57,557 bases of DNA from Gammaproteobacteria bacterium (GTDB lineage Bacteria > Pseudomonadota > Gammaproteobacteria > Pseudomonadales > Porticoccaceae). The stretch's first letter is position 1, and the number at the start of each line of letters is the position of its first letter. The stretch lies in contig JAGPUW010000013.1 in assembly GCA_018069465.1 (NCBI GenBank), positions 1 to 57,557 of the forward strand, written 5' to 3'. A program made the position numbers and the translations under genes. Under the pieces are notes generated by a model. The model was not told the DNA's origin. It saw nothing but the letters and a program-made list of their open reading frames with translations, and ran no database searches. Shown in pieces: positions 36,843 through 39,490 of this stretch.

Positions 36843-38522
36843 GTGCTTACAGCTCTTACCATTAAACAGTTCACCCTGGTTGAGTCTATGGATGTGGAGT
36901 TTAGCTCCGGGCTGACCACCATTACCGGCGAAACGGGTGCCGGCAAATCCCTGGTGCTCGACGCTCTGGGCCTGGCACTGGGCGATCGAGGCGATACCGA
37001 TCGCATTCGCCTCGGCGCAGAGCGGGCAGAAGTCTGCGCCAGCTTTGCCGTGAGCACGGACTCTCCAGCCAGCCAATGGCTGACAGATAACGATCTCGAC
37101 AGCGCCGGCGACTGCCTGTTGCGCCGCATACTCACTCGCGACGGGCGCTCCCGAGGCTATATCAACGGCCAACCGGCGACCATGACCCAACTGCGCACAC
37201 TGGGCGTGATGCTGATCGACATTCACCATCAGCACGAACATCAATCACTGCTCGCAAAAGAGCATCAGCGCACCCTGCTCGATGAGTTCGGCGGCCACCA
37301 AAAACTGCTCAAGCAGGTCGCAGAAGACTACAAAAGCTGGCATTTGGCTCAAACTCGACTGGCAGACATTGAACAGCGCGCCGATGAAACCCTGGCCCGC
37401 AAAGACTTGCTCACTTTTCAATCACAGGAGCTCATTGAACTCGACCTGCAGGCTGGTGAAATTGAGGCGCTGGAGCAAGAACAATCCCTGCTCGCCAATG
37501 CCGACACCATCCTTTTCGACAGCCATCAGGTGCTCGCCCTGTGCGATGGCGAGGCGCCGTCGCAACTCACCGTTCTGCCCGCCCTGAGCCGGGCCAGCCA
37601 GTTACTCAGCGCCATTGACCAACCTGGCCCAGCCCTGAAAGAAGCCCTCTCTCTTCTGGATAGTGCCCATATTCAAGTTGAAGAAGCACTGGGCGAACTA
37701 CAGACCTATATCGCTCAGGTAGAGCCCGATCCCGCGCGCTTACAGCGGGTCGAAGATAGGCTTTCTAGCGCCTATCAACTGGCCCGCAAGCATAAAGTGA
37801 AGGCCAATGAGCTACCCGAACTGTGCGCACAATTGCGCACCGAACTCGTCAGCCTTTGTGCCGATGACAACGATGTCGACGCCCTGACCGAGCGACTTAA
37901 AGCACTCGCTGCCAGCTACCAAAGCCAGGCTAAAAAACTATCTGCTTCAAGAAAGAAAGCGGCCAAACAATTCGAGCAGAAAATTAATCAACAACTGCAA
38001 GCACTGGCGATGGCCGATGCCAGCCTGCAAATTGCACTGACACCCCTGGCTGGCAATTACAGCCAAAAGGGGCTTGAAAGCGTTGAGCTGCTGATCAGCA
38101 CCAACCCCGGGCAGGCCCACCGATCGCTCAACAAGGTCGCCTCCGGTGGCGAGCTGTCACGGGTCAGCCTGGCGATTCAAGTGGTGGCCGCCCACAACTC
38201 CACCATACCGGTGCTGGTTTTTGATGAAGTCGATGTCGGCATCGGCGGCGCAACGGCAGAAACCGTCGGCAAACTGCTGCGCGAACTTGGCGACCATGGC
38301 CAGGTGATTTGCATCTCCCACCTGCCCCAGGTAGCCAGCTGCGCTCACCATCATTTATTGGCGAAAAAGCAAAAGGGCGAAACATCCAATCAAAGCCATC
38401 TCGTCGCCTTAGACGCGAAACAGCGCATAGCAGAAATTGCGCGCATGCTGGGGGGCGAAAAAATCACCGCAAAAACCCGCTCCCATGCGGAGGAAATGCT
38501 TGGCGCGGCAGTGACTGGTTAA
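36843..38522 (+). CDS. recN: DNA repair protein RecN
   Basis: 559 residues, an SMC-like protein. The Walker A is GETGAGKSLVLDALG near 31-45, the long central coiled coil covers about 150-390, the ABC signature is VASGGELSRVSLAIQV near 430, and the Walker B is PVLVFDEVDVGIGG near 457. It acts in double-strand break repair. The start is GTG with a weak ribosome site. It is divergent from grpE, as in Pseudomonas. Confidence 0.97.
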   Translation: MLTALTIKQFTLVESMDVEFSSGLTTITGETGAGKSLVLDALGLALGDRGDTDRIRLGAERAEVCASFAVSTDSPASQWLTDNDLDSAGDCLLRRILTRDGRSRGYINGQPATMTQLRTLGVMLIDIHHQHEHQSLLAKEHQRTLLDEFGGHQKLLKQVAEDYKSWHLAQTRLADIEQRADETLARKDLLTFQSQELIELDLQAGEIEALEQEQSLLANADTILFDSHQVLALCDGEAPSQLTVLPALSRASQLLSAIDQPGPALKEALSLLDSAHIQVEEALGELQTYIAQVEPDPARLQRVEDRLSSAYQLARKHKVKANELPELCAQLRTELVSLCADDNDVDALTERLKALAASYQSQAKKLSASRKKAAKQFEQKINQQLQALAMADASLQIALTPLAGNYSQKGLESVELLISTNPGQAHRSLNKVASGGELSRVSLAIQVVAAHNSTIPVLVFDEVDVGIGGATAETVGKLLRELGDHGQVICISHLPQVASCAHHHLLAKKQKGETSNQSHLVALDAKQRIAEIARMLGGEKITAKTRSHAEEMLGAAVTG

Positions 38523-38573: not shown

Positions 38574-38597
38574 AAAAAAGCCCCTTGCGGGGCTTAG
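38574..38597 (-). terminator. Terminator hairpin of repeat unit 1 (also at the recN 3' side)
   Basis: AAGCCCC (38578-38584) pairs with GGGGCTT (38589-38595) with a four-base loop. The T-run (six T) is on the minus strand; the plus side has only scattered T, so it would end recN transcripts less well. Confidence 0.7.
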
Positions 38598-38710
38598 TGC
38601 TTGTGGCGGTGAGGGAGGGCTTGATAATAAGCGCCTGTGGCCCCTATCACCCCTGCGGGGCACAGCGTAGCCCACGAAGTGCTTTGGCTAGCGTCGCTAT
38701 GCTCCTCGTC

Positions 38711-38730
38711 TAAATTCGTGGCCGAATTTG
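38711..38730. repeat. Covarying stem-loop, unit 1
   Basis: AAATTCG (38712-38718) pairs with CGAATTT (38723-38729) around TGGC. In unit 2 the matching stem has a C-G pair where this one has T-A, and its closing pair also differs in a way that keeps pairing. Confidence 0.65.
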
Positions 38731-38770
38731 TCGAACGGGTTCAAATCCAAATCCCCCGCACCCATAAACC

Positions 38771-38800
38771 AAAAAACCCCCTTTCGGGGGTTTGTTGTTT
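38771..38800 (-). terminator. Terminator hairpin of repeat unit 2
   Basis: AACCCCC (38775-38781) pairs with GGGGGTT (38786-38792). On the minus strand a run of six T follows. On the plus side TTTGTTGTTT follows, so it may work in both directions. Confidence 0.75.
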
Positions 38801-38881
38801 ATGGCGGTGAGGGAGGGATTGATAATAAGCGCCTAGGGCCCTTATCACCCCTTCGGGGCTTGCGTCGCTGCGCTCCTCGTC

Positions 38882-38901
38882 CAAACTCGTGCCCGAGTTT
38901 G
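38882..38901. repeat. Covarying stem-loop, unit 2
   Basis: CAAACTCG (38882-38889) pairs with CGAGTTTG (38894-38901) around TGCC, an eight-base perfect stem. Compared with unit 1 the fifth pair of the shared stem changes from T-A to C-G, with both sides altered together. Confidence 0.65.
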
Positions 38902-38941
38902 TCGAACGGGGTTCAAATCCAAACCCCCTTCCCCAACAAGC

Positions 38942-38974
38942 AAAAAACCCCATCGCCTTTAGGCGACAGGGTTT
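38942..38974 (-). terminator. Terminator of tRNA-Ser
   Basis: On the minus strand AAACCCTG-TCGCC pairs with GGCGA-TGGGGTTT around TAAA, with TTTTTT following. It starts nine bases past the CCA end of the tRNA. Confidence 0.8.
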
Positions 38975-38982
38975 GTTGCTTA

Positions 38983-39072
38983 TGGCGGTGAGGGAGGGAT
39001 TCGAACCCTCGATACCGATCAAGGTATACTCCCTTAGCAGGGGAGCGCCTTCGGCCACTCGGCCACCTCACC
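38983..39072 (-). tRNA. tRNA-Ser (anticodon GCT)
   Basis: 90 bases including an encoded CCA. The acceptor stem GGTGAGG/CCTCACC is intact, with discriminator G and then CCA. The anticodon GCT (39038-39036) lies in the loop CCTGCTAAG, and there is a long class-II variable arm (TATACCTTGATCGGTATC) and a normal T-arm (GGTTCGAATCC). It reads AGC and AGU codons. It lies downstream of csrA, as serV does in Escherichia coli. Confidence 0.97.
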
Positions 39073-39298: not shown

Positions 39299-39490
39299 CT
39301 ATTCAGCCCCTGTACCACGTTCTTTTTCATCTTGTATGCGTTGGTAGATTTCCTCTCTGTGCACTGAAATTTCTTTCGGTGCATTGACCCCGAGACGAAC
39401 TTGATTACCTTTAACGCCCAGCACTGTCACTGTCACGTCATCACCTATTACAAGGGTCTCTCCAACACGCCTTGTTAAAATAAGCATCAC
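39299..39490 (-). CDS. csrA: Carbon storage regulator CsrA/RsmA
   Basis: 63 residues. [51 protein letters not shown] is the complete CsrA dimer fold with the RNA-binding Arg44. It binds GGA motifs in mRNA leaders and represses or stabilises them. It lies in the conserved alaS-lysC-csrA-tRNA-Ser order, 231 bases downstream of lysC. Confidence 0.98.

Follow-up and report, generated by a model that had tools for sequence, protein, structure and literature searches.

The window, a 57,557-nt stretch (positions 1 to 57,557 of contig JAGPUW010000013.1, assembly GCA_018069465.1) from a gammaproteobacterium of the family Porticoccaceae, contains an intact tRNA-Ser(GCT) gene that has csrA as one neighbor and a convergent recN-like gene as the other, and the tRNA gene is followed in the direction of transcription by two tandem units of 181 and 198 bp (Table 1). 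The initial annotation had noticed three copies of TGGCGGTGAGGGAGGG at this place, the last being the 3′ end of tRNA-Ser itself, and these do start at 38604, 38802 and 38983 on the plus strand, with spacings of 198 and 181 and with the 38983 copy forming the 3′ end of tRNA-Ser(GCT). The repeats that flank the tRNA-end copies are 79% (95 nt) and 83% (88 nt) identical. It had also given each copy its own terminator hairpin, which we can confirm, as each minus-strand terminator hairpin comes after a CCA in the direction of transcription; terminator-like hairpins were matched five times over both strands compared with a mean of 1.1 in shuffled sequences.

Table 1. Features of the tRNA-Ser(GCT) locus and its two tandem units, in window coordinates
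Feature	Position	Strand	Basis or remark
recN-like gene, convergent, other neighbor of the tRNA locus	36843-38522	plus	RecF/RecN/SMC domain
Terminator hairpin 3′ of the last tRNA-end copy	38578..38595	-	
Unit 2 (198 bp)	38604..38801	-	
Unit 2, direct copy of the tRNA-Ser 3′ end, 19 nt	38604..38622	-	one mismatch
Unit 2, T-loop half and hairpin module	38623..38736	-	model R1 match 38618-38736, 69.7 bits
Unit 2, extra hairpin TAGCCAAAGCACTTCGTGGGCTA within the module	38668..38690	-	also in the tRNA-Ser(GGA) unit
Unit 2, inverted relic of the tRNA T-arm	38737..38748	-	
Terminator hairpin of unit 2	38774..38793	-	
Unit 1 (181 bp)	38802..38982	-	sequence comparison
Unit 1, direct copy of the tRNA-Ser 3′ end, T-loop to CCA, 19 nt	38802..38820	-	perfect
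Unit 1, T-loop half GTTCGA and hairpin module	38821..38907	-	model R1 match 38816-38907, 92.2 bits
Unit 1, hairpin H3	38823..38847	-	
Unit 1, hairpin H2, CCCC-GAA-GGGG	38848..38858	-	
Unit 1, hairpin H1b, GGAGC-GCA-GCGAC	38864..38876	-	tandem G.A mismatches
Unit 1, hairpin H1, CAAACTCG / CGAGTTTG	38882..38901	-	
Unit 1, inverted relic of the tRNA T-arm, GGATTTGAACCCC	38908..38920	-	inverted part tracks its own tRNA over 144 loci
Terminator hairpin of unit 1, directly 3′ of the tRNA CCA	38945..38974	-	
Intact tRNA-Ser(GCT) gene	38983..39072	-	ARAGORN; Rfam RF00005, 60.2 bits
csrA, neighbor of tRNA-Ser(GCT)	39299-39490	minus	CsrA, 8e-27

Read in the direction of transcription, a unit consists of a terminator hairpin, an inverted relic GGATTTGAACCC, GTTCGA, a hairpin module and a sequence running from AATCC to CCA. 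The module spans 80-110 nt, comprises four hairpins and lies within the T-loop (GGTTCGA^AATCC), and since the direct copy of the tRNA end starts only after it (AATCC...CCA), the copied T-arm is interrupted within its loop. The T-arm-like motif described previously, GGTTCAAATCC, is present on the plus strand, however, what it represents is an inverted T-arm relic, the direct T-arm being the split one (GTTCGA...AATCC). Similarly, the hairpin regarded as UNCG-type is common to both units, but its CCCTTCGGGG loop exists only on the plus strand and the tRNA strand reads CCCC-GAA-GGGG. The second stem claimed to stay paired through double changes does so, with AAACTCG/CGAGTTT and AAATTCG/CGAATTT in the two units, thus the paired changes are real; the tandem G.A mismatches of H1b give way to T-A and C-G pairs in some relatives. 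Open reading frames of 65-105 aa run across the units. When the window was scanned against Rfam only the tRNA family passed, with sX4, psRNA14 and others below their cut-offs (E up to 5), and the RNA of unit 1 (38802-38932) folds with a z of -2.3 relative to shuffled sequences. The inverted relic, the split T-arm, a second locus in the same genome and a kinship with E. coli rtT had no place in the initial annotation.

That second locus lies 3′ of tRNA-Ser(GGA) on contig C21 of the source genome, where unit 2 finds a match of 89% over 217 nt (E 1.8e-73) that shares its extra hairpin, a feature which unit 1 lacks. Taken together, the match and the common hairpin suggest that sequence passes between the two tRNA-Ser loci. 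Among seven genomes compared within the genus of the window, tRNA-Ser(GCT) has a unit in five, while at tRNA-Ser(GGA) a recognizable unit was seen by eye in three and a decayed remnant in two. Integrase-like frames were seen beside two such tRNAs, one at tRNA-Ser(GGA) in a genome whose congeners have a unit there (L085, G004:C1:503600-504500; Phage_int_M, E 2.8e-19) and one at tRNA-Ser(GCT) (L069, G023:C61; DUF6538). Inverted matches at L015 (G041:C140, near a contig end) and G005:C73 are either assembly palindromes or true inverted copies. In one genus (g10), taking one unit per locus from five genomes, modules at the same tRNA in different species have a median identity of 0.79 (n=18) compared with 0.65 for modules at different tRNAs of one genome (n=135, five genomes pooled). 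As same-tRNA modules are more alike than same-genome modules, most copies are passed on in place and movement between tRNAs is rare, an example of exchange being the Ser(TGA) and Ser(GGA) modules of two species with an identity of 0.86.

The expectation that a covariance model would find many copies in relatives, along with further compensatory changes, was borne out on both counts. With both units as queries, blastn gave matches in 45 of 97 genomes including the source genome, some of which cover only the tRNA end and the start of the terminator. In an alignment of 21 split-T-arm modules double changes occur in 19 of the 28 named pairs and 88.3% of cells pair, a level reached by 0 of 500 shuffles and compared with 33-47% in slid controls; the structure was named from these same sequences and the counts are inflated by their relatedness. 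Model R1 detects the module in 51 of 84 Porticoccaceae genomes (E <= 0.001), with up to 22 copies per genome. At the level of the class, 59 of 235 genomes and 52 of 187 genera match (E <= 1e-4), and a phylum search with a further model, R2, gave matches in 35 of 298 genomes, 12 of them outside the class. The matches listed from a pattern scan of named genomes (80 of 120 loci) include Serratia, Buttiauxella, Klebsiella, Aliidiomarina, Alishewanella, Rheinheimera, Endozoicomonas, Woeseiaceae, Lysobacterales and others. The window units have no blastn match in phage or plasmid records, and judged by eye one of three pattern matches on viral contigs (L319) looks like a true module and the other two like chance matches in coding sequence. 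The same-genome match at the other tRNA-Ser and the recurrence of the module at tRNA genes of many genomes indicate that the window units did not arise by chance.

Some further observations concern the modules themselves. They can stand in tandem without tRNA parts, and in one genome (G120; L117, L118, L124 and L125) a different short palindromic repeat, GATCCTTCGGCTTCGCTCAGGATGACA, recurs with close variants 3′ of the units. Outside the family, many H1 and H3 loops (modules L170-L197) have GGA or AGGGAUG-like letters, which the window H1 and H3 loops do not. Letters of this kind resemble CsrA sites. The idea that the H1 and H3 loops are CsrA sites was dropped on inspection by eye, the window loops having no GGA.

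Almost all copies of the module sit at tRNA genes. Of the 54 copies in three complete genomes, 45 are at most 800 nt 3′ of a same-strand tRNA, for an expectation of about 0.5%, and the remaining nine comprise three inside interrupted copies of tRNA-Cys, two on the 5′ side of tRNA-Ser(GCT), one at a distance of 969 nt, two far from any detected tRNA (L136 being beside a tRNA-end relic) and one weak match on the opposite strand. When one locus was taken from each of 29 of the 58 other matching genomes of the class, all 29 had a same-strand tRNA (28) or tmRNA (1) within 1.5 kb; one of these (L179) is of the 5′ type discussed below, and one (L183) was clipped and its match placed by hand. Thirteen of 16 further loci from the phylum search also have a same-strand tRNA or tmRNA within that distance, the exceptions being L322, L325 and L327. 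Pattern matches, of which there are 137 in 123 loci, fall within 1 kb 3′ of a tRNA or tmRNA in 88 cases, 74 of these at 32-94 nt (median 72), with another 8 at contig edges and 41 elsewhere, several of which look like chance matches in coding sequence. The module follows tRNAs of 23 anticodons in addition to tmRNA, and the host tRNAs include those for Ser, Arg, Leu, Lys, Pro, Val, Phe, Asp, Ala, Gln, Gly, Tyr, Asn, Met and Glu.

The sequence on either side of the module depends on which tRNA it follows. This was scored at loci with a regex-found module 40-115 nt after a tRNA (144 loci, 142 for the right arm), not all of which are independent. The right direct copy matches its own tRNA with a score of 14.4, compared with 6.6 for tRNAs that carry other amino acids (Wilcoxon p 2e-24, n=142), and is in the top 5% in 113 of 142, while the left inverted part scores 8.0 against its own tRNA and 5.6 against others (n=144, p 1e-17) and is in the top 5% in 64 of 144. 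In the controls, the left region compared with direct ends gave 5.0 v 4.8 (p 0.03) and the module body compared with direct ends 4.9 v 5.2 (p 0.999). Many units keep only the T-stem part of the right copy, the acceptor part having drifted. From these scores, one module is framed by tRNA-specific arms. Each unit is a second tRNA 3′ end in which one homologous four-hairpin module interrupts the T-loop, with an inverted relic of that tRNA end before it. The initial description of the repeats as derived from the tRNA-Ser 3′ end was thus correct and is general, with the tRNA-derived parts following the adjacent tRNA at 142-144 loci.

Copies of a mirror type also occur, in which the 5′ body of a tRNA runs to GGTTCGA and is followed by the module and then by a partial 3′ part, the whole lying 5′ of an intact tRNA. 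Thirteen such pattern loci, with no tRNA within 1 kb upstream and one within 600 nt downstream, all carry the body of their own tRNA (13/13; scores of 26-73 compared with 9-23 for the best tRNA of another amino acid), several of these bodies being letter-perfect and three (L232, L233 and L242) partial. At L133 (G032:C1:1549200-1551400) three tandem near-whole tRNA-Cys copies, each having its acceptor end broken and its T-loop occupied by the module, are followed by intact tRNA-Cys. Four genomes have, as judged by eye, the module or a near relative of it at the D-loop of a 5′ fragment of tRNA-Ser (L067 and L068 in G023, L075 in G007, L079 in G026 and L118 in G120), followed by an inverted stretch like the tRNA segment after the D-loop. 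The tRNA-Ser(GCT) of G023, apparently twice interrupted, was considered as an intron-bearing essential tRNA and rejected as such, since an intact copy follows on contig C66. A split sole copy of a tRNA was found neither in G023, nor for the tRNA-Cys of G032, nor at any of the 13 mirror loci.

The closest known counterpart is the RtT RNA or rttR of E. coli, the 178-bp repeats of tyrT-tyrV (RF00391), which like the window units lie 3′ of a tRNA gene and each end in its 3′ end. The K-12 repeats follow the same plan, with an inverted GGGGAAGGAT, GGTTCGA, four hairpins of which the third is CCCGAAGGG, and AATCCTTCCCCCACCACCA, so that here too a T-arm split as GGTTCGA...AATCC goes with an inverted tRNA-end relic. 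The window units differ from them in following tRNA-Ser, in their strong terminators and in a different H1, and their homologs follow many tRNA species, unlike the tyrT/tyrV repeats of RF00391. The window has no match to RF00391 at the gathering score (45 bits) and none up to E 5, and among 12 sources other than E. coli the family reaches its cut-off at two loci, L184 after tRNA-Tyr (63.1 bits) and L201 at a Serratia tRNA-Ser (46.6 bits). Model R1 did not find the K-12 rtT repeats at E 0.01. Model R2, built from 134 matches, none of them from the only E. coli locus among the sources (L036), ranks the four K-12 repeats first with 27.8, 26.2, 23.7 and 21.9 bits (E 1.1e-7 to 7.4e-6), the next match having 10.7 bits (E 0.022). 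We call the window copies RtT-like because they fail RF00391 and yet are homologous by model, and the R2 ranking implies an RtT-like superfamily wider than the Rfam family. Judged by model homology, the window units belong to a large RtT-type superfamily of tRNA-linked repeats of which only parts have been described before.

Gain or loss of single units can be seen in E. coli. K-12 carries a single unit in the tyrT-tyrV spacer, where it sits between the tyrT CCA and TCTCAAGCATT, and another three beyond tyrV; strain 142 has no units and in its spacer CCA meets TCTCAAGCATT directly, hence in this one pair of alleles the spacers differ by exactly one unit between tRNA-end copies. By megablast 4680 of 5426 E. 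coli genomes match rtT, in 1-9 places each, and 746 have no match. The K-12 spacer unit (L036, 1878-1955) reads GAGGAGCGAAGCGACGA, close to the letters of the window family, and the three units after tyrV differ from it. The E. coli copies carry the RefSeq label “RtT sRNA,” and RtT RNAs have been described as genuine transcripts in E. coli and Pasteurellaceae, with Northern blots confirming expression of the RtT-family sRNAs Arrc20 and Arrc21 in Actinobacillus pleuropneumoniae (PMC4986893). These two are RtT homologs 5′ of Asn- and Lys-tRNA genes and can be compared with our mirror type; the accessible text of the paper describes them as sRNAs and does not describe a split tRNA end, tandem units or tRNA tracking (PMC4986893). 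A 175-bp VNTR of rtT RNA has been reported in Salmonella (PMC2658671). In the open-licence literature, as far as its accessible text extends, the split T-arm, the tRNA-specific arms and the spread over many tRNAs were not found described as one family.

Does selection act on the hairpins as RNA or as DNA? If RNA shape were selected, G-U should exceed A-C on the transcribed strand, and tRNA stems at the same loci, scored at fixed positions in 123 CCA-ending tRNAs of 127 representatives, have 83 G-U, 4 A-C and 1999 Watson-Crick pairs. For the module, wobble pairs were scored as mismatches in the first test and could be trimmed, and the test was repeated with neutral scoring (145 module representatives in both) and on a model-fitted alignment (88). 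H1 has 1 G-T and 3 A-C in the first test, 5 and 11 with neutral scoring (1205 Watson-Crick) and 5 and 6 in the model alignment, where H1b has 2 and 2 and H2 has 0 and 3. The corresponding counts for H3 are 5 and 7, 54 and 36, and 20 and 5 (p 0.004). A control on tRNA arms under neutral scoring gave 17 and 0 for the T-arms but was not a fair one, because the anticodon-arm ran into its loop (33 G-T, 89 A-C) and the pooled arms thereby lost their excess (50 G-T, 89 A-C), hence our use of fixed positions. With no G-U excess, H1, H1b and H2 behave like DNA palindromes. The three are near-perfect Watson-Crick palindromes and DNA-like, and H3 leans to RNA, an indication of moderate and not decisive weight. 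The suggestion in the initial annotation of selection on RNA or DNA shape is thus partly supported, in that the paired changes are real but RNA shape is not clearly favored, and of the roles that it offered a mobile repeat that uses tRNA ends comes closest.

We favor, with a probability of roughly 0.55, an element of chromosomal DNA that recombines by way of tRNA ends and leaves the tRNA intact, with RNA as a by-product or co-opted. The unit would act as DNA, and its gain or loss would come about through recombination at the T-loop-to-CCA sequence, in the manner of a very small integrative element with the tRNA end as its attachment core. One intact tRNA gene would remain after such an event, and arrays could grow and shrink as their repeated tRNA ends recombine with one another. 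The perfect palindromes may be kept because they fold in single-stranded DNA, or may themselves be the recombination substrate, and the hairpin module would mark the joint. Read-through from the tRNA promoter could then give an RtT-like RNA, as a by-product or secondarily put to use. Integrases that target tRNA genes usually have the tRNA 3′ end, T-loop to CCA, as their core, and their integration leaves the tRNA intact. Integrative elements of this sort share with the window units the copied T-loop-to-CCA block beside an intact tRNA, and direct tRNA 3′-end copies at both junctions, an intact tRNA and, in the one E. coli allele pair, a precise empty site were all found. However, the units are about 180 bp long with no recognized gene, and have mirror 5′ counterparts; at 170-200 bp the units are too short to contain an integrase gene. 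The DNA-element reading is weakened by the lack of a recombinase or transposase linked to the module, in a search that covered Y1, as well as by the G-T excess of H3, the in-place inheritance, the reported RtT transcripts and the copies far from a detected tRNA. Presence or absence between direct repeats could also reflect ordinary homologous recombination or slippage, in which case no dedicated mechanism would be involved.

The main rival is a structured RNA, in which the units give rise to RtT-type small RNAs that tRNA processing frees from the tRNA transcript and that are selected for their shape as a regulator, a modulator of the stringent response or a decoy for tRNA processing. The covariation, the G-T excess of H3, the folding of unit 1 RNA and the RtT RNAs detected in E. 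coli and Actinobacillus all speak for it, but H1, H1b and H2 are without the G-U excess of tRNA stems, a terminator stands between the tRNA and unit 1 with another at the start of unit 2, units are missing or decayed-looking in congeners and absent by megablast from the 746 E. coli genomes, and the module also occurs in interrupted copies 5′ of tRNAs, so that we consider such an RNA rather unlikely to be what maintains the units. A palindromic element of the REP/BIME or IS200 kind, whose insertion into tRNA loops would be due to a transposase of the Y1 type (RAYT) working on single-stranded DNA, is an improbable source. The spread of REP sequences is tied to RAYT. REP and BIME sequences are short palindromic intergenic hairpins, as in the window units, but are not tied to tRNA genes. 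The hairpins near both tips of the module, its insertion after TTCGA, GGCTGA or GATCA and the tandem modules free of tRNA parts that were seen by eye fit such an element, as do an rtT-like sequence reported in BIMEs (PMC2965389) and the listing of rttR as REP-bearing (PMC12306157), both in the accessible text of these sources. Y1 (PF01797) is also somewhat commoner in module-bearing genomes of the family (22/51 vs 7/33, Fisher p 0.06), but 29 of the 51 have no match, including G032, G119, G110, G011, G048 and G118 with 13-19 copies each. A resident Y1/RAYT transposase as the driver was rejected, being not required in these 29 carriers and only weakly associated. One genome (G000) has four Y1 matches, which are candidates for the RAYT type.

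Two other explanations seem very improbable to us. In the first, the extra T-loop-to-CCA copies would be decoy attachment sites, a harmless target for tRNA-targeting integrases. Each unit does recreate the usual core, and the integrase fragment of G004 stands where its congeners have a unit; the acceptor part of the copy is nonetheless lost in many units, phage and plasmid records hold no match and the mirror 5′ copies would go unexplained. Passive tandem duplication of the tRNA end followed by decay, with an incidental likeness of the hairpins, agrees with the tandem arrangement and the mostly locus-bound inheritance but is contradicted by the common module, one homologous sequence at 23 anticodons and tmRNA that extends outside the class (12 of 35 matching genomes), and by the strong covariation. 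Returning to the DNA element, a broader form of it can be put forward tentatively, in which gene-less minimal DNA cassettes may enter tRNA and tmRNA genes at the T-loop and in some cases at the D-loop, act via folded single-stranded hairpins and regenerate their target, building 3′ or mirror 5′ arrays of which E. coli rtT would be one member.

The repeats call for care in annotation, as copies of tRNA ends and tRNA bodies that are split can pass for tRNA genes or peptides. Thus far rtT has been best known as an oddity of E. coli tyrT. Seen as one case of a Proteobacteria-wide superfamily at more than 20 anticodons and tmRNA, its origin and function become a comparative question. If the units are indeed DNA cassettes that break up tRNA genes and restore them, they would count as some of the smallest elements directed at tRNAs, and would preserve a natural record of T-loop recombination.
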